Assembly: GCA_029560585.1 (NCBI GenBank)
Contig: JAKQKQ010000335.1
Location: 62,001-126,000 of the forward strand
Reading direction: 5' to 3'
Length of the DNA stretch: 64,000 bases
From: Verrucomicrobiota bacterium
GTDB taxonomy: Bacteria; Verrucomicrobiota; Verrucomicrobiia; JADLBR01
Each line of letters starts with the position of its first letter. The first letter of the stretch is position 1. Positions 25,446 to 43,768 of this stretch are shown in pieces. The notes below the pieces were generated by a model. That model worked only from the letters and a program-made list of their open reading frames with translations, searched no databases and had not been told where the DNA came from. A program made the translations under genes and the position numbers.

Positions 25446-27173
25446 ATGGCTAGCGTCCCGCCGCGACAAGCCCGTTTGACTTCAAGCGCAGCATGCGTCT
25501 CGGTCCTCATGTCTTTTTTGTGCTGGATTCCCGGCCACGCCCAAGAGGCGGGGGGCGGTGGCACAAACATGTTTCAGAATGCAGACATGAGCCGCGCCGT
25601 ACCCATGGAGGTGCTGTGGGACGGGGTGGATAGCAAGAGCAAGCTGCGGGTGCCGACCTACAGCCGCATTGCGGCGACCATGAGCGGGAAGGTGACGGGT
25701 GTGCCCATGCCGGCGTCGCCGGCGATAGGCGACGTCACCGGCGACCAATTGCCCGACCTGGTCGTTGGCGATGGGCTGGGCTACATCTGGGTGTTCAAGA
25801 ACGTGGGCACGAAGGAGGCGCCGAAATTCACCGGCGGGGAGATCCTGCCGGTCTGGCTCTTCCACGAAGAGCGTTGGGGCGGATATCAGCTGCACGCGGG
25901 TTGGGAGCGAGAAAACCCCCGCTATGTCCCGCGTGTCCACCTGACCGACTGGGATGGCAACCGAGAGCCGGAGTTGGTTGTGGGCACATTCTTTGGCGAG
26001 ATCTATCACGTGCCGCTGAACATCAGCGGCGGCCAGGTGTCCGTGCCCAACGGCACCGCGGCGCAGTCCGAGATCGGGGTCCGCCAGCAGGGCGAGTTTT
26101 GGGGGAACTTCTTCACGCCATTTGTCTGGGACTGGAACGGCGACGGGGCCAAGGATCTCCTCATAGGCGAGGGCACCTACGCGTGCAACGCGGTCTATCT
26201 GCTGTTCAACACCGGCAGCAACTCAGGCCCGAAGTTCAAGGCGGATGAGCGGAAGGTGCTGGTGTGGGGCGATGGGCGCGAGCAGCTCAAGCCAGCGATC
26301 GTCGACTGGGACAACGACGGAAACGCCGACCTTCTCGTCTGCGACTACAATGGCGGCATCACCATCCACCTCAACAAGGGCGGCAACAAGGACCTCAAGG
26401 AACCCCTCCCATCCCAGGGCATCGACTTGCAGATCGGGAGCCAGAAGAGTTTTGGGACGCTCTGCTGTCCGGCGATCGGCGATCTCAATGGCGACGGGCT
26501 CTTCGATATCGTGATCGGAAAATCCGATGGGACCCTGAGCTATGCGTATAACAGGGGGAAGGCCGGGGCGCCGAAGTTCGACAAGCTCGAGCAATTCGCC
26601 GGCGCGGACATTTATCCGGCGACCAAGCGCCCGGTGTACTGGACCGACAACCTCATGCGCTCAGGCACGCCCTACTACGTGGTGGAGCAGTTCAACGATC
26701 CGACCAACACCGCGGGACCCGGCCGCAGCGGCGGGGACTGCGTCCGGCTGCGCTTCGTCACGCCCCAGCAGACCGTCGCGAAGGGGAAGTTCCCGCCCGT
26801 CGGCAGCAGCGAGAAGGACTTTGTCAACATCATGCGGTACGAGCAGAGCAGCAAGCTCTACGTGGGCAAGAAGTACGAGATCAGTTTCTGGATCCGCCGG
26901 GAGGGCTTCACGTCCTGCGACTGGTACATCTGGGGCGAAGAGTGGGAGAAGGGGAAGACCCGCCGCGGTGAGGAGATCCAATGGTACGGCAAGAAGCGGC
27001 TCTCCGTCCACCAGGAGCGCGAAAATGTGGCTGGCGGCGGCTGGCGGTTCATCAAGAAGACATTCGTGCTGCCGGGCAAGATCAAGGGCAATGACGTGAA
27101 CCACATCTTCTGGATTCTCACGAATGGCACGGGTGAGGTGTACGTCGACGACATCAGCTTCAAGGAGGTCTGA
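25446..27173 (+). CDS. FG-GAP/VCBS beta-propeller exported protein (paralogue 1)
   Basis: A 575-residue exported protein (signal ending PGHAQEA). Propeller blades of the FG-GAP type show calcium-binding loops DVTGDQLPDLVVGD, DWDGNREPELVVG, DWNGDGAKDLLIGEG, DWDNDGNADLLVCD and DLNGDGLFDIVIGK between about residues 95 and 365. The C-terminal third (about 395-575) reads as a CBM4/9-like jelly roll ending GTGEVYVDDISFKEV. It probably binds a surface or polysaccharide; no enzymatic residues are recognised. A tandem paralogue of nearly the same length follows after 67 bases. TATAAG at 25433-25438 is very close to the ATG, so a nearly leaderless transcript is possible. Confidence 0.85.
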   Translation: MASVPPRQARLTSSAACVSVLMSFLCWIPGHAQEAGGGGTNMFQNADMSRAVPMEVLWDGVDSKSKLRVPTYSRIAATMSGKVTGVPMPASPAIGDVTGDQLPDLVVGDGLGYIWVFKNVGTKEAPKFTGGEILPVWLFHEERWGGYQLHAGWERENPRYVPRVHLTDWDGNREPELVVGTFFGEIYHVPLNISGGQVSVPNGTAAQSEIGVRQQGEFWGNFFTPFVWDWNGDGAKDLLIGEGTYACNAVYLLFNTGSNSGPKFKADERKVLVWGDGREQLKPAIVDWDNDGNADLLVCDYNGGITIHLNKGGNKDLKEPLPSQGIDLQIGSQKSFGTLCCPAIGDLNGDGLFDIVIGKSDGTLSYAYNRGKAGAPKFDKLEQFAGADIYPATKRPVYWTDNLMRSGTPYYVVEQFNDPTNTAGPGRSGGDCVRLRFVTPQQTVAKGKFPPVGSSEKDFVNIMRYEQSSKLYVGKKYEISFWIRREGFTSCDWYIWGEEWEKGKTRRGEEIQWYGKKRLSVHQERENVAGGGWRFIKKTFVLPGKIKGNDVNHIFWILTNGTGEVYVDDISFKEV

Positions 27174-27240: not shown

Positions 27241-28956
27241 GTGAATCTGATGCGAGGTTCAGCCGGGCGCGCCGCGCTTGCGCCCTTGGTCGCCCTGGGT
27301 CTGCTGATTCCGCGGGGCACCGCCGTCGCCCAGCAAGGGGGCGGCAGCAACATGGTCAACAACGCGGACATGGGCCGGGCGATCCCCGTCGAGGTCCTTT
27401 GGGAGGGCGTTGATAGCAAAGGCAACCTCCGCGTTCCAACCGGGAGCCGCATCACCGCGACATCTAGCGGCAATGTGACTTCCGTCCCGATGCCGGCGTC
27501 CCCGTCGATCGGCGACGTGACGGGCGATCAGCTGCCCGACCTCGTCGTCGGCGATGGCCTGGGCTACATCTGGGTCTTTAAGAACTCTGGGGCCAAGGAG
27601 GCACCGAAGTTTACGCAGGGCGAGATTCTGCCCATGTGGCTGTACTCGGAGGAGCGGTGGGGCGGCTATAAGATCCACGAGCCGTGGGAGCGCGACAACC
27701 CGCGCTACGTGCCCCGCGTTTTTCTCACCGACTGGGACGGCAATCGCGAACCGGAGGTCGTGGTCGGGACCTTCTATGGCGAGATCTTCCGCGTGCCCCT
27801 GAACATCAGCGGGGGCCGGATCGCCGTTCCCGGCAGCCGCGCGACGGAGTTTGAGATCAACATCCGGCAGCAGGGCGAGTTCTGGGGCAACCTGTTCACG
27901 CCCTGCGTCTGGGACTGGAACGGTGATGGCCTGAAAGACCTCATCATTGGCGAGGGCACGTACGCGTGCAATGCCGTCTATCTTCTCCTCAATACCGGAA
28001 GCAATTCGGGCCCGAGGTTCAAGGCGGAGGAGCGCAAGGTGATGGTGTGGGGCGATGGGCGCGAGCAGCTCAAGCCGATCGTCATCGATTGGGACAACGA
28101 CGGGACCGCGGACCTCCTGGTCTGCGATTACAAGGGCGAGATCACCGTCCACCTCAATAAGGGCGGCCACAAGGACATGAAAGAGCCACTGCCATCCGAA
28201 GGCAGCCCGGTGGCGGTCGCTGGCCAGAAGTCGATTGGCCAGCTCGCGTGTCCCGCCCTGGGCGACCTCAATGGGGACGGGCTGCCGGATCTCGTCGTCG
28301 GGAAAACGGATGGCACCCTGCATCTCGCGCTGAACACCGGCAAGGCGGGCGCGTTCAAATTCGACAAGATCGAGCCCATCAAGGGTGCCGACATCTATCC
28401 GGCCACGAAGAAGGTGGTGTATTGGAATGACTCCTCTCTTCGCCCAGGCGTGCCGTACCACGTGGTGGAGCAATTCAACGACCCGGCCAACACCGCGGGT
28501 CCCAACCGGAGCGGGGGGGATTGCCTCAGGCTCTACTACGTGGAGCCCAAGCAGGTCGTCGCCAGCGGCAAGTTCCCCGAAGTGGGGGCCAAGATCAAGG
28601 ACTTCAAGAACATCCTGCGCTACGATGGGAGCTTCAAGATGTTCGTTGGGAAGAAATACGAGTTGACCTTCTGGGTGCGACGCAGCGGGTTTCAGGCGTG
28701 CGAGTGGTACACGTGGGCCAACGAATGGGAGCAGGAGAAGACGCGTCGTGGTGAGGAGGCGCAGTGGTACGGCAAGAAGCTCCTCTCATCCCACCACAAA
28801 CGCGAGGAGATCACTCCGGGCAACTGGAAACAGATCAAATACACGTTCACCCTCGAGGGCAAGATCAAGGGCAACGAGATGATCCACAACCTCTGGTTCC
28901 TCACCGACGGCAAGGGTGAACTCTACGTCGACGACATCAGCTACCGCGAGCTCTGA
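27241..28956 (+). CDS. FG-GAP/VCBS beta-propeller exported protein (paralogue 2)
   Basis: A 571-residue paralogue of the preceding gene, colinear along its whole length. The same blades appear (DVTGDQLPDLVVGD, DWDGNREPEVVVG, DWNGDGLKDLIIGEG, DWDNDGTADLLVCD, DLNGDGLPDLVVGK), as does the same jelly-roll end (GKGELYVDDISYREL). The signal peptide is different in sequence. Translation starts at the GTG at 27241 or the ATG at 27250; no good ribosome binding site is visible. The most variable part is the jelly roll, where carbohydrate recognition may differ. Probably secreted or surface-attached; function otherwise unknown. Confidence 0.85.
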   Translation: MNLMRGSAGRAALAPLVALGLLIPRGTAVAQQGGGSNMVNNADMGRAIPVEVLWEGVDSKGNLRVPTGSRITATSSGNVTSVPMPASPSIGDVTGDQLPDLVVGDGLGYIWVFKNSGAKEAPKFTQGEILPMWLYSEERWGGYKIHEPWERDNPRYVPRVFLTDWDGNREPEVVVGTFYGEIFRVPLNISGGRIAVPGSRATEFEINIRQQGEFWGNLFTPCVWDWNGDGLKDLIIGEGTYACNAVYLLLNTGSNSGPRFKAEERKVMVWGDGREQLKPIVIDWDNDGTADLLVCDYKGEITVHLNKGGHKDMKEPLPSEGSPVAVAGQKSIGQLACPALGDLNGDGLPDLVVGKTDGTLHLALNTGKAGAFKFDKIEPIKGADIYPATKKVVYWNDSSLRPGVPYHVVEQFNDPANTAGPNRSGGDCLRLYYVEPKQVVASGKFPEVGAKIKDFKNILRYDGSFKMFVGKKYELTFWVRRSGFQACEWYTWANEWEQEKTRRGEEAQWYGKKLLSSHHKREEITPGNWKQIKYTFTLEGKIKGNEMIHNLWFLTDGKGELYVDDISYREL

Positions 28957-31211: not shown

Positions 31212-32033
31212 ATGAAAAAGACTATAGAGCCCCCACGTTGGTCCCGGGCCACGGCCTGGTTCAAGAAACATTCGGACAAGATGCCGGCGCTGCTTGTGGC
31301 CTTGGGTGCCCCGGCGGCGCTGATCTCGTGCGCGACGCTGCAGCACGCGATCGTGGCGCCCCCCAATCAGATTCCGGGAGCGGAATTCGTTGGGAGCGCC
31401 GCGTGCGAGGACTGCCACGCGGACGTGTCGGCCAAGTTCAAGAACGCGACGCACTCGCGGCTGAAGGCGCAGGGCGACAAGGCGAAGAACATTGGCTGCG
31501 AGTCCTGCCACGGTCCGGGCAGCAAGCACGTCGAGGCCGGCGGCGGGCGCGGTTCCATCGTGAATCCGCGGCGCTCGCCCGACGTGTGCTTCCAGTGCCA
31601 CTTGGACAAGCGGGGTGAGTTCAGCCTCCCGTACACGCACCCGGTGCTGTCGGGCAAGGTGAGCTGCACCGATTGCCACGACCCGCACAAGGGCAACGCG
31701 ATCCCGGCGGGCGGCACGGAGCTGGCCACCGAATTCGACACCTGCGGCAAGTGCCACACGGCCCAGCGTGGTCCGTTCGTGTTCGAGCACGAGGCCGTCC
31801 GCGAGGGCTGCGGCACCTGCCACAAGGTGCACGGCTCGGTGAACCCGAAGATGCTGAAGGCGCGCAACGCAAACCTGTGCCTGCAGTGCCACTTCCAACA
31901 GCAGACGGTCCCCGGCCAGATCTGGATTGGAGGCCGCGACCACTCGAGCTTCTTGAGCCGCGGTACCTGCTGGAGCGCCGGCTGTCACGAGGCCATCCAC
32001 GGCTCGCAGATCGGCTCGTCACTGCGCTTTTAA
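31212..32033 (+). CDS. Eight-heme DmsE/MtrA-like cytochrome c lipoprotein
   Basis: Likely hands electrons through the outer membrane. The 273-residue protein has seven CXXCH sites (C65, C96, C126, C152, C178, C200, C223) and one CX4CH (C253-H259). AQRGPFVFEHEAVREGCGTCHKVHGS is typical of the DmsE/MtrA family, whose members usually carry ten hemes; Geobacter OmaB has eight. A lipobox LISC (37-40) predicts lipid anchoring. No ribosome binding site lies next to the ATG, but an AAGGAG lies 70 bases upstream. The next gene, 22 bases on, encodes a large outer-membrane barrel, matching the porin-cytochrome pairing mtrAB/ombB-omaB. Acting on a soluble substrate is an alternative. Confidence 0.88.
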   Translation: MKKTIEPPRWSRATAWFKKHSDKMPALLVALGAPAALISCATLQHAIVAPPNQIPGAEFVGSAACEDCHADVSAKFKNATHSRLKAQGDKAKNIGCESCHGPGSKHVEAGGGRGSIVNPRRSPDVCFQCHLDKRGEFSLPYTHPVLSGKVSCTDCHDPHKGNAIPAGGTELATEFDTCGKCHTAQRGPFVFEHEAVREGCGTCHKVHGSVNPKMLKARNANLCLQCHFQQQTVPGQIWIGGRDHSSFLSRGTCWSAGCHEAIHGSQIGSSLRF

Positions 32034-32055: not shown

Positions 32056-34392
32056 ATGACTAAGCAAATTTTCCTGATGAAACGGTGGATGCTCGCTGCG
32101 GTATTCGCGGGGCTCGGCCTCTGGGCCGGTCCTGCGTTCGCGGGCTCGGAACCGGCTCCGGCCACGTCGGAGAAGGCGGTCACCTCGGAGAAGGGGGCGG
32201 AGACGCCCGTCACCGAGGAGGAGGCCCTGAACAATTGGGTCGAGCTCGGCATGGGCTACAACTGGGTCAACGGCGACGGCGCCCAGTTCCAGCAACGCAT
32301 GGGCCTGCCGCGCGACTCGTTCTATGGCGGGATCGAGGACCTGCACATGGAGGGCGCGCTGGGCAAGGGTCAGTTGACGCTCGACGGGCGGGCGATCTTC
32401 GACAACGGGGATTACCTCGCAAACATCAAGTACACGCATCCCGACTGGGGCTACGTGAACTTCGGATTCCAGGAGTTCCGGACGTATTACGACGGGAGCG
32501 CTGGGTTCTTCCCCTCGGAGGACTATACCGCCGTCGGCAACACGCGGACGGACAAGTGGTTCGACGGATTCGATGACGAGATGTACATCGAGCGGGGCTC
32601 CCTGTGGTTTGAAGGGGGGCTGCTGTTGCCCGACATGCCGCAGATCGTGTTCCGCTACGAGCACAACTGGCGCCACGGCCGGAAGGACTCCACCAGCTGG
32701 GGTGACAGCGCCTACACGGGGGGCTATTACAACCACCTGGGCGCCGTCTCGACGTACGGTGCGCGCGCCTTCGTGCCGTCGTACTGGGACATCAACGAGT
32801 CGCGTGACATCTTCGACATCAAGCTCACGCACACCATCGGCAACACCGACTTCGGGATCGGCGGTCGCCTCGAGTTGCTCGACCAGGACAACGGCCTGTA
32901 CGAGCGGCGGAGCCCGCACGCGATCGGCACCTCCCCCAAGGGCGCGAACACCAACATCGACCGCAAGATAACGCAGAAGGAGGGCCTGGACGCGGACCTC
33001 TGGAACGTCCACACATTCACCGACACGAAGCTGAACGACCAGTTCACGCTCACCAGCGGCTTCTCGTATACGGCGATGGACACCGACGTGTTCGGGAGCC
33101 GCATCATCGGTGACCACTACGACGACGAGTACGACCGTTACTTCCAGCGGCGGCAGCAGCGCGATGAGGGTTTCCACGACCTCGTCGGCGGTGCCTTCCT
33201 GAAGCAGTACGTGGGCAACATGAGCCTGATGTACACACCCTTCGAGCACCTGGTCATCGTCCCGTCTGTCCGGGTCGAGGCCCAGGACCGCGATGGCATG
33301 GTCAACTTCATCGAGACGAACTTCGACAGCTCTAAGAATGGATTCCGGGAGTTGGCGAGCGATCTGCGCAACATGCAGAACCGGCAGGACTTCGAGGTGA
33401 CCGAGGGACTCGAGATTCGTTACACGGGCATCCCCGATTGGGTCTTCTACATCGCCGGTGAATGGTCCGAGGGCACGACGCAACTCAAGGAGAGCGAATA
33501 CTTGCTCCGCGAGGGCATCGACGACCACTGGGAAGTCCCGGGCTACAACGAGGCGACCGAATTGTACCGGGACACCAACTCGGATCGTTCGCTTCAGAAG
33601 TACACCGCCGGGGTGAACTGGTACCCGCTGAATCAGGTGAACATCGGCGCGCAGTACTATTATAAGGAGAAGGACATCGACTATGATTTCCTCACGGACT
33701 GGGAGACCTACACGGTCAATGGCACCGGGGATCTCTATCCGTCCTTCATCCGCGAGCAGGACTTCCAGACGCACGATCTCAATGTGCGCCTGACCTTGCG
33801 CCCGTGCTCGTTCCTGACGGCCGTGACGCGGTATGATCTGCAGCACACCACCATCGACACCCGTGGGGATTTCGCCCGGTCGAGCGGCGTCAACGACACC
33901 GCCCGCGCGCTGGATTCGATGGAGAGCGCCCAGTTCGACAGCCACATCATCAGCGAGAGCATCACGATCGTGCCGTGCCAGCACGTCTACATCCAGGGCA
34001 ACGGGAGCTACTGCTTCGATGAGCTTGAGACCCCGATCTACGGTCGTGAGCTCCCGGCGGATTCCGGCTACACGACCCTCGTCGGGCAGTCGCGGAACAG
34101 CTACTGGACCGTCAACGCGCTGCTGGGCATCCTGCTGGACGAGAAGACCAACCTGCAGTTCCAGTACGACTACTACCTGTCCAACGACTACGTGAACAAC
34201 TACTTCGCGACGATGCCGTACGGTGCCGAGAGCGAAGAGAGCCGCGTCATGGCGACGCTGAACCGGCAGATCACGCGCAACCTGAGCGTGACCCTCCGGT
34301 ATGGCTTCGTCGACTTCAAGGACGTGCCGTCGGGCGGGTACAACGGATACAACGCGCACATGGCGTACGCCGGCATGAAGTTCAGCTTCTGA
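32056..34392 (+). CDS. MtrB/OmbB-like outer-membrane beta-barrel
   Basis: A 778-residue protein with signal peptide (ending AGPAFAGSEP), many alternating amphipathic strands with long acidic loops, and a final strand AHMAYAGMKFSF ending in Phe. Size and context match the large 26-28-strand porins (MtrB, PioB, OmbB) that sheath a multiheme cytochrome across the outer membrane. Sequence identity with MtrB itself cannot be judged here, and the MtrB N-terminal CXXC is not seen. TAGGAG precedes the ATG. It directly follows the eight-heme lipoprotein gene and should be its partner. A generic porin is the alternative. Confidence 0.8.
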   Translation: MTKQIFLMKRWMLAAVFAGLGLWAGPAFAGSEPAPATSEKAVTSEKGAETPVTEEEALNNWVELGMGYNWVNGDGAQFQQRMGLPRDSFYGGIEDLHMEGALGKGQLTLDGRAIFDNGDYLANIKYTHPDWGYVNFGFQEFRTYYDGSAGFFPSEDYTAVGNTRTDKWFDGFDDEMYIERGSLWFEGGLLLPDMPQIVFRYEHNWRHGRKDSTSWGDSAYTGGYYNHLGAVSTYGARAFVPSYWDINESRDIFDIKLTHTIGNTDFGIGGRLELLDQDNGLYERRSPHAIGTSPKGANTNIDRKITQKEGLDADLWNVHTFTDTKLNDQFTLTSGFSYTAMDTDVFGSRIIGDHYDDEYDRYFQRRQQRDEGFHDLVGGAFLKQYVGNMSLMYTPFEHLVIVPSVRVEAQDRDGMVNFIETNFDSSKNGFRELASDLRNMQNRQDFEVTEGLEIRYTGIPDWVFYIAGEWSEGTTQLKESEYLLREGIDDHWEVPGYNEATELYRDTNSDRSLQKYTAGVNWYPLNQVNIGAQYYYKEKDIDYDFLTDWETYTVNGTGDLYPSFIREQDFQTHDLNVRLTLRPCSFLTAVTRYDLQHTTIDTRGDFARSSGVNDTARALDSMESAQFDSHIISESITIVPCQHVYIQGNGSYCFDELETPIYGRELPADSGYTTLVGQSRNSYWTVNALLGILLDEKTNLQFQYDYYLSNDYVNNYFATMPYGAESEESRVMATLNRQITRNLSVTLRYGFVDFKDVPSGGYNGYNAHMAYAGMKFSF

Positions 34393-34517: not shown

Positions 34518-34832
34518 ATGAAGAAAGTGCTTATCGTTGGTGTGGCCGCATGGTTCGCGGCCGCGATGTCGAGTTTCGGGGCAGACGGCGCGGCGCTCTG
34601 GAAGTCGCATTGCGCCAAGTGCCACGGGGCAGATGGAGCGGGCGGGACCGCCATGGGCAAGAAGCTCAAGTGCAAGGACTACAGCAAGGAGGCTGTCTCC
34701 GATGACGCGATCGCGAAGGCGATCAAGGATGGCGTCAAGGAGGGCGGCAAGGTCGTGATGAAGCCGACCGCGGGCGTGTCTGACGACGACGTCAAGGCCC
34801 TGGTCGCGCACATGAAGTCCCTCAAGAAGTAA
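34518..34832 (+). CDS. Small monoheme class I cytochrome c (copy 1)
   Basis: A 104-residue periplasmic electron carrier. The signal peptide runs to about MSSFGA, the heme site is CAKCH (32-36), and the distal Met is probably in KVVMKPTAG. The fold is that of short cytochromes c6/c5-type. AAGGAG lies upstream of the ATG. A second copy (37867-38181) with the same leader and signal peptide lies beyond the FeS/NrfD genes. This copy has an extra Cys in KLKCKDY where copy 2 has Met. Likely carries electrons from the quinone-oxidising modules to the eight-heme lipoprotein. Confidence 0.92.
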   Translation: MKKVLIVGVAAWFAAAMSSFGADGAALWKSHCAKCHGADGAGGTAMGKKLKCKDYSKEAVSDDAIAKAIKDGVKEGGKVVMKPTAGVSDDDVKALVAHMKSLKK

Positions 34833-35083: not shown

Positions 35084-35659
35084 ATGGCCGGATTCCCTTT
35101 GAAGATCCCTCCCCAAATCAACAGGCTCATCCTGCTGACCCTCGGCATCGTGGGCTCCTATCTCATCGCCCGCTACTTTCTGACGCCGGCCACGTTTGGC
35201 CAATACGGGTGGTACCGGGGCGCGGCGCTGGAGGAAATTGCGTCCAGGACGCCGGTGTACGCCGGAAAACTGGCCTGCGACGAATGTCACTCCGAGAAGC
35301 TTGAGATGCTGGCCAAGGGCAAGCACCAGACGCTGTCTTGCGAGGGATGCCACGGGGTGAGTTCGCAGCATGCGGCGAATCCGGACATCCTCCCGGTCAA
35401 GATGGCGGGCAGCCACTGCATTCGCTGCCACGAGCAGAATGACTCGCGGCCTACATGGTACAAGCAGATCGTCGTCAAGGATCACTACGCCGGCAAGTGC
35501 CGCGAATGCCACATGCCCCACAATCCCACGGAGGTTCCCGAAGAACCGCAGCCGGCGGATCAGGCCGCGAAAGAAGAAAAGCAAAAGCCCGAGTCACCAG
35601 AGAAGAAGCCGGGCGCGGTCGAGAAGGCGGGCAAGGCCGAGAAGGCGGAGGTGCCATGA
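35084..35659 (+). CDS. Membrane-anchored tetraheme cytochrome c
   Basis: A 191-residue protein with one N-terminal membrane helix (about 14-33) and four CXXCH sites (C65, C86, C112, C139). A Lys/Glu/Pro-rich tail of some 40 residues without predicted structure follows. Its stop overlaps the start of the iron-sulfur subunit (ATGA at 35656), and NrfD follows, so the three probably form one inner-membrane complex of the CISM type that exchanges electrons between the quinone pool and cytochromes. NapC/NirH-like tetrahemes or the cytochrome subunits of Geobacter Cbc complexes are the nearest known types. Confidence 0.88.
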   Translation: MAGFPLKIPPQINRLILLTLGIVGSYLIARYFLTPATFGQYGWYRGAALEEIASRTPVYAGKLACDECHSEKLEMLAKGKHQTLSCEGCHGVSSQHAANPDILPVKMAGSHCIRCHEQNDSRPTWYKQIVVKDHYAGKCRECHMPHNPTEVPEEPQPADQAAKEEKQKPESPEKKPGAVEKAGKAEKAEVP

Positions 35660-36468
35660 GCAAGTCGTTCTCGAGGCGTGGCGTGCTTGGGTCCCTCGGA
35701 GGCATCGTGGGGGGCCTGCTGTCGCTTCCGGTGGCCCGGCACGTGAAGGCGGCGGTCCAGCGCGTGTTCGCCTCGGCGGGCGCCCCGGAGGGGTACGATG
35801 CCACCAAGCACTGGTGGCTGATGGTCATCGACATCGATCGGTGCATCGGCTGCGGGCTGTGCGCCGAGGCCTGCAAGAACGAGAACCACGTGCCCAAGGT
35901 GCCGACCTACTTCCGCACCTGGATCGAGCGCTACATCATCAAGAAACCGCGGCCCGGCACGACCGAGACGCGGGGGGAGACGCTGGTCGATTCGCCCAAT
36001 GGCGGCATCGACGGCTTCCCGCCCTCGCTGGTGCCCCGCGAGGAGATCCTGAAATCGTTCTTCGTGCCGAAGCTCTGCAACCTGTGCCACCAGTCACCGT
36101 GCACGCAGGCGTGCCCCGTCGGCGCAACCTTCGATGCCCCGGACGGTGCGGTCCTGATCGACCCGAACTACTGCATCGGATGCGGCTTCTGCATCCAGGC
36201 CTGCCCGTACGGTTGCCGATATTTCAATCCCGAGACCAAGACGGCCGACAAGTGTTCGCTCTGTTACCATCGGATCACGCGGGGCCTGAAGCCCGCGTGC
36301 GTTGAGATCTGCCCGACGGGGGCACGGATCTTTGGTGACTTGAAGAATCCGGTGCCCGACGATCCGATCCTGCGCTTTGTCCGGGACAAGAAGGTCCAGA
36401 CGTTGAAGCCCCACTTGGGGACGGAGCCTCGCGTGCTCTACGCGGGGATGGACAAGGAGGTCCGGTAG
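35656..36468 (+). CDS. Tat-exported iron-sulfur subunit with four [4Fe-4S] motifs
   Basis: A 270-residue ferredoxin-type protein of the NrfC/HybA/DmsB family. The Tat signal SRRGVLGSLGG is followed by four cysteine clusters: CIGCGLCAEAC (63-73), CNLCHQSPCTQAC (141-153), CIGCGFCIQAC (173-183) and CSLC with CVEIC (200-219). Export places the clusters in the periplasm next to the tetraheme cytochrome. The frame is open from 35455, but the ATG at 35656 overlaps the previous stop and starts the Tat signal. One base separates its stop from the NrfD gene. No catalytic molybdenum subunit is nearby. Confidence 0.93.
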   Translation: MSKSFSRRGVLGSLGGIVGGLLSLPVARHVKAAVQRVFASAGAPEGYDATKHWWLMVIDIDRCIGCGLCAEACKNENHVPKVPTYFRTWIERYIIKKPRPGTTETRGETLVDSPNGGIDGFPPSLVPREEILKSFFVPKLCNLCHQSPCTQACPVGATFDAPDGAVLIDPNYCIGCGFCIQACPYGCRYFNPETKTADKCSLCYHRITRGLKPACVEICPTGARIFGDLKNPVPDDPILRFVRDKKVQTLKPHLGTEPRVLYAGMDKEVR

Positions 36469-36469
36469 C

Positions 36470-37705
36470 ATGTTCCCCGCACTCGCCACCTTGGTCGAAG
36501 GCGTGCCCCACTTCGATGGCTTCGTCTACCCGAACGAGTTGCTGCTCCTCTGGAGCGTCCTCATCGTGATCTACCCCTACGTGACGGGGTTGGTCGCCGG
36601 CGCCTTCATCTTGGCCTCGCTGGTCCGCGTGTTCGAGGTGAAGGCCCTGGAACCCGTGTATCGACTCTCGCTGCTGACCGCCCTCTCGTTCCTTCTGGTG
36701 GCGCCGATGCCGTTGCTGCTCCACCTCGGGCACCCCGAGCGCTGCCTGCAGATCATGATGACGCCGCACCTGAGTTCGCCCATGGCGATGTTCGGGTTCG
36801 TGTACGCATGGTACCTCATGGCCGTGCTGCTTCTGGAACTGTGGTTCGACTATCGGAAGGATTTCGTGGAGTGGTCCAGGAGCGAGGTTGGTCTCAAGGG
36901 CATCATGTACCGCATATTCACCTTGGGCGTGGAGGACGTCTCCGAGCCCTCGGTGCGACTGGACGCGCGCCTGGGAAGGATCATCACCGTGATCGGCATC
37001 CCGTCGGCCTTCCTGCTCCACGGTTACGTCGGTTTCATTTTTGGTTCGATCAAGGCGAACCCGTGGTGGGGCAACGTGCTGATGCCAATCATCTTTATAT
37101 TCTCGGCGATGGTCTCGGGCATCGCGCTCTGCGTGTGCCTCTACATGGCGATCAACTGGGGGCGCCGCATCCCGCAGGATATCGTTTGCATCGACATGAT
37201 GGGCAAGTTCCTGTTTTACGCGCTGGTCATCGACGCCGGCCTGGAGGGGCTCGACTGGGTCCACCGCCTGTACGCGGCCGACGAGTCCATCCACATCCTC
37301 AAGACGCTGGCCTCGGGCAAGCTGTTCTACACCCTGCTTGTAGGGCAGGCCTGCATGGGCACGGTGGTGCCGTTTTTGCTGCTGGGGGCCGTGCAACTGT
37401 TCCGAAAGAAGATCCCCACGCTGGCGAGGGAGAGGATGTACTTTGTCAGCGCCGCGCTGGTGGTGCTCGGCGTGTTCGCGATGCGGTGGAACGTGGTGAT
37501 CGGCGGCCAGCTCTTCTCGAAGAGCCTCCGCGGATTCACAAGCCACAAGATGGAGTTGGCCGGGCAAGAGGGGTGGCTCGTGGGGCTCGGCCTCATCATT
37601 TTGCCGTTCGTCATACTGACCGTGCTGCTGAAGTATTTCTTGCCCGCTAATGCGGTGCTCCCGCCCCGCGGCGAAACATCGGCCGCCCCCGGACACGCGG
37701 TCTAG
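36470..37705 (+). CDS. NrfD/PsrC-type quinone-interacting membrane subunit
   Basis: A 411-residue protein with about nine or ten membrane helices. Features of the NrfD family include GLVAGAFILASL in an early helix, LLLHLGHPERCLQIM with the conserved His/Glu area, and charged residues at the periplasmic ends of helices. It oxidises or reduces menaquinol in the membrane and passes electrons to the iron-sulfur subunit. It starts one base after the iron-sulfur gene. With the tetraheme it makes a three-subunit complex. The family also has proton-coupled members in alternative complex III and Psr; the direction cannot be told. Confidence 0.93.
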   Translation: MFPALATLVEGVPHFDGFVYPNELLLLWSVLIVIYPYVTGLVAGAFILASLVRVFEVKALEPVYRLSLLTALSFLLVAPMPLLLHLGHPERCLQIMMTPHLSSPMAMFGFVYAWYLMAVLLLELWFDYRKDFVEWSRSEVGLKGIMYRIFTLGVEDVSEPSVRLDARLGRIITVIGIPSAFLLHGYVGFIFGSIKANPWWGNVLMPIIFIFSAMVSGIALCVCLYMAINWGRRIPQDIVCIDMMGKFLFYALVIDAGLEGLDWVHRLYAADESIHILKTLASGKLFYTLLVGQACMGTVVPFLLLGAVQLFRKKIPTLARERMYFVSAALVVLGVFAMRWNVVIGGQLFSKSLRGFTSHKMELAGQEGWLVGLGLIILPFVILTVLLKYFLPANAVLPPRGETSAAPGHAV

Positions 37706-37866: not shown

Positions 37867-38181
37867 ATGAAGAAGGTGCTTATTGTTGGTGTGGCCGCAT
37901 GGTTCGCGGCATCTATCTCCGCTTTTGGCGCGAGCGGGGCGGATATCTGGAAGGCGAATTGCGCGAAGTGCCATGGGGCGGATGGCGCAGGCAAGACCGC
38001 CATGGGCAAGAAGCTCAAGATGAAAGACTACTCGGCAGAGGCCGTCTCCGAGGAGGCCGTTGCCAAGGCGATCAAGGATGGCGTCAAGGAAGGTGGCAAA
38101 GTCGTGATGAAACCGATCGCGGGCCTGTCCGATGACGACGTCAAGGCCGTCGCCGCGCACATGAAGTCCCTGAAGAAATAA
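37867..38181 (+). CDS. Small monoheme class I cytochrome c (copy 2)
   Basis: A 104-residue carrier, near-identical in design to copy 1: the same signal peptide start (MKKVLIVGVAAWFAA), CAKCH heme site and KVVMKPIAG distal region. Even the untranslated leader with ACAGAAGGAGAG is shared, so the duplication included the ribosome binding site and is recent. The frame opens at 37810, but the ribosome binding site and signal peptide fix the start at 37867. It lies after NrfD, separated by 161 bases, and may serve as the acceptor of that complex, with copy 1 serving the outer-membrane conduit. Confidence 0.92.
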   Translation: MKKVLIVGVAAWFAASISAFGASGADIWKANCAKCHGADGAGKTAMGKKLKMKDYSAEAVSEEAVAKAIKDGVKEGGKVVMKPIAGLSDDDVKAVAAHMKSLKK

Positions 38182-38306: not shown

Positions 38307-39050
38307 ATGGTGACGAAGCTGATTGGATGGCGCATCCCGGTGTCGTGTGTTCCCATTGCTCCGGCGGTGGTGGCGCTGTGCCTGCTGGCGGGTTGTGGCG
38401 AGGAACCGATCCGCAGTTACCGGATTGCCAAAGAGCAACCTGAGGAGGCCGCCCCCCAGTCAACGGAGTCACGGCAGATGCCCCCGGGCCATCCGCCAAT
38501 GGGGGCGCAGCAGGGACTGCCACCCGATCATCCGCCGGTAGGCCAGGTCACGCCGGGACAGGCCCTGCCACCGGATCATCCGCCCATCGGCGGTGCCCCC
38601 GGCCCGCAGCGGGAGGCCGCTGCCGCGGCGCCGGCGCTGGCATGGGACGCGCCGCCCACCTGGATCCAGAAGCCCGCCGGCGGGATGCGCGTCGCGAGCT
38701 TCGATGTGCCCGGCGCGGGAGATGCCAAGGGCGACCTTTCGATCATCGTTCTGGGTGGAGGCGCGGGCGGCCTGCTGCCCAACGTCAATCGCTGGCGCGG
38801 ACAGATTGATGCGGAGCCCTGGACCCAAGAGGTGATGGATCGCGAGTTTCAGAAAATCCAGTGCCCGGCCGGCACGATCCTGTTCGTGGACCTGCGGAAG
38901 CAGCCGCCCGCGAAAAGGATCCTTGCCGGGATCCTTGAACGCGAGGGCCAGAGCTGGTTCTTCAAGCTCGTCGGCGACGACGCGGCTCTCGAGGGCGCGA
39001 AGCCCGCCTTCGTTGAGTTCTTGAAAACGGTCAGGGGCGCGAAGCCATGA
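38307..39050 (+). CDS. Lipoprotein with PPDHPP repeats beside ResB
   Basis: A 247-residue lipoprotein (lipobox LLAGC near residue 30). After a charged linker come three short repeats, MPPGHPPMG, LPPDHPPVG and LPPDHPPIG, each with a His between prolines. A folded domain of about 150 residues follows (TWIQKPAGGMRVASFDVPG to the end). The gene overlaps resB by ATGA, so it is probably made together with the cytochrome c maturation system. The function is not known; heme or metal binding by the His repeats is conceivable. Confidence 0.8.
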   Translation: MVTKLIGWRIPVSCVPIAPAVVALCLLAGCGEEPIRSYRIAKEQPEEAAPQSTESRQMPPGHPPMGAQQGLPPDHPPVGQVTPGQALPPDHPPIGGAPGPQREAAAAAPALAWDAPPTWIQKPAGGMRVASFDVPGAGDAKGDLSIIVLGGGAGGLLPNVNRWRGQIDAEPWTQEVMDREFQKIQCPAGTILFVDLRKQPPAKRILAGILEREGQSWFFKLVGDDAALEGAKPAFVEFLKTVRGAKP

Positions 39051-40228
39051 ATCTGCAGAGGATATTCAAGCTGCTCGCCGACCTGCGACTGACCATCTTC
39101 TGCCTGGGGCTGCTGATCGTGCTCGTGGCGCTGTGCACGGTCGCGCAGGTGAAGCTCGGGGTTTTCGAGGCGGTCGAGAAGTACATGCGGGGATTCTTCG
39201 TATGGTGGCATCCGGCGGGATTGCCGTTTGCGCTCCCGGTGTTCCCCGGCGGCGCGACCGCGGGCTTGTTGCTGCTCTTGAACTTGCTGGCCAGCTTCGT
39301 GGTGCGGTTGCGGCCCGTCAGGGAGCAGATCGGCCTGTGGCTGATCCACGCGGGACTTGTGATCTTTGTTCTGGCGGAGTTCGCCACGGGCATGTTCGCG
39401 ATCGAGACGCTCATGCAGATCCAGGAGGGCCAGTCGCGGAACTACACCGAGAGCCGTGACCGCATCGAGTTGGCGGTCGTCGATACCACCGACTCTCAAT
39501 CCGATGCCGTGACCGCGATCCCGGTCTCGCGGCTTGGGATCGGCAGGCCCATCACGCCCCCGGGCGTGCCCTTTTCACTCACCGTCAAAGGATATTTCGA
39601 GAATGCGGCCGTGACCGAGCGCACCGCCGAGGCCCCGATGGCCGTGAACATGGCCACCGCCGGATCGGGCGCGGCCCGCTCCGTCTTCCCGCAAGAGACC
39701 GCCACTGGCGATGACAAGGCGAACAACAATCCCGCCTGTTTCTTGGAGATCACCCAGGGCGAAAAGAGCCTGGGAGTCTGGCTCGTCACGACGCTCGCCG
39801 CGCAACCGGAGACGCTGGAGGTGGGCGGCAGGAAGTTCGCGATCTCCCTGCGCCACGAGCGGCACTACCTGCCATTTCGCATCACCCTGAAAGATTTCCG
39901 CCACGACGTGTATCCGGGGACGGAGATCCCGAAGAATTTCTCCAGCCTGGTTCACCTGAGCGATCCCGCGGCGGGCGAGGATCGCGAAGTCCTCATTTAT
40001 ATGAACAGCCCATTGCGGCACGGCGGCAAGGCATTCTATCAGTCCGGATATCGGGAGGATACCATATCCATCCTCCAGGTCGTGGATAACCCGGGATGGC
40101 TGTTGCCCTACGTCGCATTCGTCGTCGTCGGCGTGGGCATGCTGGTCCAGTTTCTTGGGCACTTTATCGGATTTGTCCCGCGTGTCCACGGCGGGCGCGC
40201 GGCGGGTGGTGGCGCGACGGTCGCATGA
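39047..40228 (+). CDS. resB: ResB-like cytochrome c maturation protein
   Basis: A 393-residue inner-membrane protein of System II heme ligation. The N-terminus (LLADLRLTIFCLGLLIVLVALCTVAQ) is the typical first ResB/Ccs1 helix. Helices near 60-80 and 90-110 follow, then a long periplasmic domain and a final helix (LLPYVAFVVVGVGMLVQFLG). With CcsA it transfers heme to apocytochromes in the periplasm. ATGA overlap with the upstream lipoprotein gene; CcsA starts 13 bases after its stop. The presence within the cytochrome island fits the high demand for c-heme there (at least 21 heme sites). Confidence 0.9.
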   Translation: MNLQRIFKLLADLRLTIFCLGLLIVLVALCTVAQVKLGVFEAVEKYMRGFFVWWHPAGLPFALPVFPGGATAGLLLLLNLLASFVVRLRPVREQIGLWLIHAGLVIFVLAEFATGMFAIETLMQIQEGQSRNYTESRDRIELAVVDTTDSQSDAVTAIPVSRLGIGRPITPPGVPFSLTVKGYFENAAVTERTAEAPMAVNMATAGSGAARSVFPQETATGDDKANNNPACFLEITQGEKSLGVWLVTTLAAQPETLEVGGRKFAISLRHERHYLPFRITLKDFRHDVYPGTEIPKNFSSLVHLSDPAAGEDREVLIYMNSPLRHGGKAFYQSGYREDTISILQVVDNPGWLLPYVAFVVVGVGMLVQFLGHFIGFVPRVHGGRAAGGGATVA

Positions 40229-40241
40229 CGGGAAAGGGCCT

Positions 40242-42077: not shown

Positions 42078-42292
42078 AGATGCCGCGGCGCCATCCCGAT
42101 CCTTGCCGGAAAGGGCTCGGTCGCAGGCGTTTGCCCTTGACCCGTGCTAGCTGCCCCATAACCTCTCCTAATGATTTTTCTGGCCAAAATGCGGATGTCG
42201 CAGGGACCCGCAGCTAGTATGGCCAGCGTTGCGCGCCCGCTTGGACTGCCTTGCGACATCCGGCCAAGGCGAGATCCACCCTCGTTGATTCT

Positions 42293-43768
<1,476 letters not shown>

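Follow-up and report, generated by a model that had tools for sequence, protein, structure and literature searches.

An octaheme MtrA relative with a lipobox and its adjoining barrel: a probable outer-membrane electron conduit of Verrucomicrobiota

MtrA is a wire-like cytochrome by which some bacteria send respiratory electrons across their outer membrane. In the crystal structure of MtrCAB, the N-terminus of MtrA protrudes on the periplasmic side and heme A10 faces MtrC. The MtrA wire is 80 Å long and spans a membrane of about 40 Å, and its N-terminal half is the mobile part, making few contacts with MtrB (PMC7198977). According to Shi et al. 2014, Mtr cytochromes had yielded no atypical heme motif (PMC4245776). 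In Geobacter, the OmaB-OmbB-OmcB (Pcc) system combines a porin with a periplasmic eight-heme cytochrome (PMC4245776), and the OmaB system is reported to share no sequence similarity with Mtr (PMC6148476, PMC4245776). Another arrangement was described by He et al. 2017, who found a porin beside a cytochrome whose eight heme sites are conserved, in humic-bog Verrucomicrobia and in Opitutus terrae. They regarded the cytochrome as periplasmic and the system as non-homologous to those of Shewanella and Geobacter, and proposed that it serves extracellular electron transfer to humic substances; their text mentions neither a lipobox nor a CX4CH motif (PMC5615132). Verrucomicrobia are not mentioned by Baker et al. 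2022 in their account of the spread of Mtr (PMC8805035).

Here we describe a cytochrome gene, octA, and its neighbours in a 64,000-nucleotide stretch of DNA from a Verrucomicrobiota bacterium, the whole of which we call the window. By description, the OctA-barrel pair is very probably the porin/octaheme system of He et al. 2017. OctA resembles OmaB in having eight hemes and a porin partner, the two being likened by published description alone.

An octaheme relative of MtrA with a lipobox

The features of octA and the gene that follows it are:

31212-32033, + strand: OctA (our name), predicted lipoprotein and octaheme cytochrome c, MtrA/DmsE superfamily (sequence, profiles, alignment and model)
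31212-31331, + strand: signal peptide with the lipobox LISC; codon of Cys40 at 31329-31331
31968-31988, + strand: CX4CH heme site CWSAGCH, residues 253-259, aligned with MtrA heme 10
32056-34392, + strand: putative outer-membrane beta-barrel with an MtrB-like fold, 778 aa (model and gene adjacency)

Translation of 31212-32033 gave a protein of 273 aa with CXXCH motifs at residues 65, 96, 126, 152, 178, 200 and 223, which bears out the eight heme sites of the original prediction (seven CXXCH and one CX4CH near the C-terminus). The lipobox LISC occupies residues 37-40. The predicted RGPFVFEH core is present at residues 186-193 but is not universal in the family, where His193 alone is invariant, P188 being more than 90% conserved. 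Across 101 aligned relatives, C40 and all heme Cys and His residues other than C253 were invariant, and C253, which opens the CX4CH, was nearly so, with a single exception (L107). Exactly eight further histidines were invariant: H81, H106, H143, H159, H193, H207, H244 and H263. Together with the eight proximal histidines they make up the number needed for eight bis-His hemes. The prediction had been made to depend on the CX4CH being kept in relatives, and we found seven CXXCH and one CX4CH in every complete family member except L107, which has eight CXXCH, with CXXCH as its last site, and retains the lipobox. The combination of CX4CH and lipobox is not peculiar to one gene.

The N-terminus of OctA has a basic part, then a hydrophobic stretch, then Cys40. 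The lipobox Cys was found in 111/111 distinct relatives, preceded by S in 100, A in 6 and G in 5; none of the 111 has Asp at +2, and 24 residues separate the Cys from the first heme site in 94 of them. An alternative in-frame ATG lies at codon 24 (31281), so that both plausible starts (31212 and 31281) are upstream of the lipobox; a start after Cys40, which would have counted against the prediction, would lose the lipobox and leave no export signal. The predicted LISC lipobox at Cys40 is thus confirmed by the translation and by the invariant Cys of the relatives. The genome also encodes LspA, the lipoprotein signal peptidase, and LolA. With this lipobox after a hydrophobic stretch, OctA is a predicted bacterial lipoprotein.

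The closest PDB sequence to OctA was 6r2q_A (E 9.8e-27 when OctA alone was the query, 6e-45 when the family profile was used), its sole strong PDB relative; this chain is MtrA of Shewanella baltica, the molecule name in the sequence file being wrong. An AlphaFold model of OctA (single chain without heme, mean pLDDT 81) gave only one significant Foldseek match, again 6r2q_A (E 1.6e-9), and VIA-align superposed the two with a Z of 11.4 over 181 residues, the next structure scoring 6.5. OctA has both the MtrA fold in its model and significant similarity across the C-terminal six hemes, on which its place in the superfamily is based. When OctA was aligned with three kinds of decaheme, hemes 1-2 and 5-10 were represented and the segment of hemes 3-4 was missing, and its CX4CH fell on MtrA heme 10 by way of a two-residue insertion. 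The structural alignment begins at MtrA residue 132, as if OctA hemes 1-2 occupied the places of MtrA hemes 3-4. The two missing internal hemes may thus correspond to MtrA hemes 3-4, as the sequence suggests, although the structural alignment differs.

OctA scored 163.6 bits against the DmsE family (TIGR03508), below the curated cut-off of 192.2, with the match strongest over the counterparts of hemes 5-10; it is an octaheme, whereas that family has ten CXXCH. Against the GSU2203 family (NF041028), a decaheme family, it scored 163, the cut-off being 325. Both models match all 101 aligned OctA members. Since OctA falls below the DmsE cut-off, we place it in a sister octaheme branch rather than treat it as an odd DmsE. 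The predicted kinship with MtrA and DmsE, with eight hemes rather than ten, therefore holds at the level of sequence.

A genome-contig search returned at least 378 relatives. Among the best 80 of these, nearly all carried Verrucomicrobiota names; the odd labels (Klebsiella, Dechloromonas and Omnitrophota) probably belong to misnamed or mis-binned MAGs. OctA was matched in 22 of 57 sampled relative genomes, and a genome of the same genus has a copy that is 86% identical. A plasmid search gave distant multiheme relatives only. In the tree, the octahemes clustered together, separate from five decahemes (support 100/99); L107 lay outside all CX4CH members (100/97), its long branch making this basal place unsure. 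Provided that the placement holds, the lipobox and the eight-heme form would be older than the CX4CH, and L107 is possibly an intermediate form. The gene of L107 (446-1496), a lipobox octaheme with eight plain CXXCH, shares its contig with a CX4CH paralogue, L094, in genome G039. Across Verrucomicrobiota, this shortened, predicted lipid-anchored MtrA variant is almost unchanged.

The adjoining barrel and the proposed conduit

Of the 130 loci in which 0.9 kb or more follows octA, 129 have the barrel gene next, on the same strand. Its AlphaFold model (single chain, pLDDT 84.3) has 26 long strands, and the top structural match was MtrB, 6r2q_B (Z 19.9, 558 residues, rmsd 3.7), followed by FecA (Z 17.1, 433 residues, rmsd 5.3). 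Identity with MtrB in the structural alignment is 12%. No curated family matched the window's own barrel, and the GSU2204 family (NF041027), whose cytochrome partner is the decaheme GSU2203, was matched by 9 of 60 barrel family members (best E 9.6e-9). A profile of the barrel family detected the gene beside one decaheme, L185 (E 2e-4), and did not reliably detect those at other decaheme loci. Sequence thus hints only weakly at homology between this barrel and MtrB. With Shewanella MtrAB (6r2q) the locus shares a homologous cytochrome, the top fold match for both partners, 26 strands and the same gene pairing. It differs in that MtrA carries ten hemes at CXXCH motifs and lacks a lipobox, while OctA, a predicted lipoprotein, has eight heme sites of which the last is a CX4CH.

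Taken together, sequence and models suggest that OctA and the barrel form an outer-membrane electron conduit of the MtrAB type, with the cytochrome tethered by a lipid at its periplasmic end; we put the probability of this reading at about 75%. Signal peptidase II would cut before Cys40, OctA would be lipidated, and the Lol pathway would sort it to the outer membrane's inner leaflet, as the family's lack of Asp at +2 suggests. The lipid would then hold the periplasmic N-terminal end of the wire at the mouth of the barrel. Such an anchor, with lipidation and leaflet both predicted, is well motivated by analogy, because the N-terminus of MtrA protrudes periplasmically (PMC7198977) and the anchor of OctA is N-terminal; it would fasten exactly the part of the wire whose counterpart in MtrA is loose. 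The C-terminal half of OctA would plug the barrel, so that electrons could cross the outer membrane inside the 26 strands, and the CX4CH heme would occupy the surface exit, in the place of MtrA heme 10. Ten hemes over 80 Å correspond to about 9 Å per step, so that eight hemes would reach roughly 62 Å and still cross the membrane.

Unlike Shewanella MtrAB, the octA cluster in the window has no MtrC-like gene. Elsewhere in the genome, the MtrC/MtrF-like domain PF22113 gave three weak matches, none linked to octA: a 784-aa exported nine-heme protein (L177 4372-6723, genome contig C98), a 588-aa eight-heme protein and a 226-aa five-heme protein. In other loci, exported proteins with nine hemes, roughly 560-790 aa long, adjoin octA, upstream in L064, L074, L075 and L081 and downstream in L023, and several of them carry PF22113. 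These neighbours may be candidate surface partners in part of the family. A more speculative reading, which we consider possible though on the doubtful side, is that of a phylum-specific wire that has no obligatory surface cytochrome, is shortened and held at one end by its lipid, and feeds soluble acceptors or exchangeable partners through the CX4CH heme.

Downstream genes and the direction of electron flow

Downstream of the barrel lie the following genes:

34518-34832, + strand: exported monoheme cytochrome c, small (104 aa)
35084-35659, + strand: tetraheme cytochrome c with a membrane anchor, 191 aa, CXXCH motifs at residues 65, 86, 112 and 139
35656-36468, + strand: TtrB/DsrO/NrfC-type 4Fe-4S protein whose N-terminus is twin-arginine-like
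36470-37705, + strand: NrfD-type integral membrane quinol/quinone oxidoreductase (Pfam NrfD, E 6e-38)
37867-38181, + strand: another monoheme cytochrome c, sharing 83% identity with the first (34518-34832)
38307-39050, + strand: predicted lipoprotein (LLAGC) of no family, accompanying ResB-CcsA in relatives
39047-40228, + strand: ResB, System II cytochrome c biogenesis, the sole ResB found in the genome
40155-42077, + strand: cytochrome c synthase subunit of the CcsA/CcsB type, its real start probably farther on, near 40230
42251-43768, + strand: ImcH-like membrane-anchored heptaheme, putative quinol oxidase, 505 aa (likened to ImcH by published description)

The two monoheme cytochromes flank the tetraheme, 4Fe-4S and NrfD genes. 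The lipoprotein, ResB and/or CcsA genes also occur near octA in nine other loci (L014, L015, L022, L026, L030, L043, L053, L054 and L068). We considered whether ResB-CcsA might be a synthase dedicated to the CX4CH and rejected the idea: no second ResB was found in the genome, which is 95.7% complete, and just one further CcsA-like match turned up, a weak one. The c-type cytochromes in general are therefore probably served by this pair. A promoter scan gave no more than expected by chance. Elsewhere in the window, two tandem genes (25446-27173 and 27241-28956) encode exported proteins with FG-GAP-like repeats that are 69% identical.

The heptaheme has a CX3CH at residue 151 followed by six CXXCH, and hydrophobic segments at 27-61, 66-95 and 118-140. 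ImcH is described as a protein of 495-519 aa with three transmembrane helices, an atypical CX3CH and six CX2CH (PMC6295460), and the heptaheme fits this in length, hydrophobic N-terminal segments and motifs, Geobacter ImcH being compared by description only. No mtrAB adjoining imcH was found in the 2018 survey (PMC6295460). Of the 59 relative loci whose downstream sequence runs to 5.5 kb or more, 24 carry ImcH-like genes, which means that the inner-membrane partner varies.

In the proposed route, quinol electrons would enter through the ImcH-like heptaheme, the NrfD/4Fe-4S/tetraheme module or both, reach OctA by way of the small monoheme cytochromes, and end on an acceptor outside the cell, for example Fe(III) or humic substances. 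We infer the outward direction from ImcH, whose only implicated role to date is quinol oxidation (PMC6295460).

Alternative readings and implications

Flow in the opposite direction also has to be considered. The Mto and Pio systems show that MtrA-type conduits operate both ways, and NrfD modules are able to reduce quinone, so that the conduit could, like MtoAB and PioAB, draw electrons inwards from a donor outside the cell, Fe(II) for example. Given the exclusive link of ImcH to quinol oxidation so far (PMC6295460), we consider the inward direction unlikely. Another reading dispenses with the conduit. OctA could be a lipoprotein of the inner membrane, or one facing the periplasm, that serves a periplasmic reductase. 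The NrfD/NrfC-like and tetraheme subunits of the cluster would suit such a role, and neither a reductase nor a surface cytochrome adjoins octA in the window. This reading is nevertheless very improbable, given a barrel directly downstream in 129/130 loci, the structural match of both proteins to MtrA and MtrB and the lack of Asp at +2, although the E. coli +2 rule may not apply in this phylum.

Two further readings concern the unusual features of OctA itself. The hydropathy peak spans residues 23-44, and He et al. 2017 predicted the octahemes of the Verrucomicrobia system to be periplasmic (PMC5615132); both would agree with an uncleaved anchor or an ordinary signal peptide in which the Cys is incidental, OctA being a plain periplasmic subunit. 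We judge this very unlikely, since the Cys is invariant in the 111 sequences, always preceded by S, A or G, and follows an uncharged stretch while the sequence farther upstream is variable, and since LspA and LolA are both encoded. CX4CH is rarer than CXXCH, and OctA might be a heptaheme whose last site has decayed and holds no heme. C258 and H259 are invariant, however, with C253 nearly so, the other invariant histidines number eight rather than seven, and CX3-4CH motifs are cited as confirmed covalent heme sites in Shi et al. 2014 (PMC4245776), which makes a decayed site extremely improbable.

For the MtrAB-type conduit, what is new relative to He et al. 2017 is the homology to MtrAB, the predicted lipid anchor, the CX4CH exit heme and the linkage to an ImcH-like gene, the function being predicted. 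For the Mtr family, the open-licence papers found describe neither lipid anchoring of the buried cytochrome nor an atypical heme where electrons leave at the surface. A Verrucomicrobia system once called novel and unrelated is now tied to MtrAB, the best understood outer-membrane wire, so that its structure and behaviour become predictable and testable. Furthermore, the presence of an ImcH-like putative quinol oxidase in the octA cluster suggests a complete route from quinol to the outside. The spread of the variant across Verrucomicrobiota suggests an overlooked, widespread respiration onto extracellular substances, and since these bacteria are common in soils and humic waters, it could amount to a large unmeasured share of anaerobic respiration.
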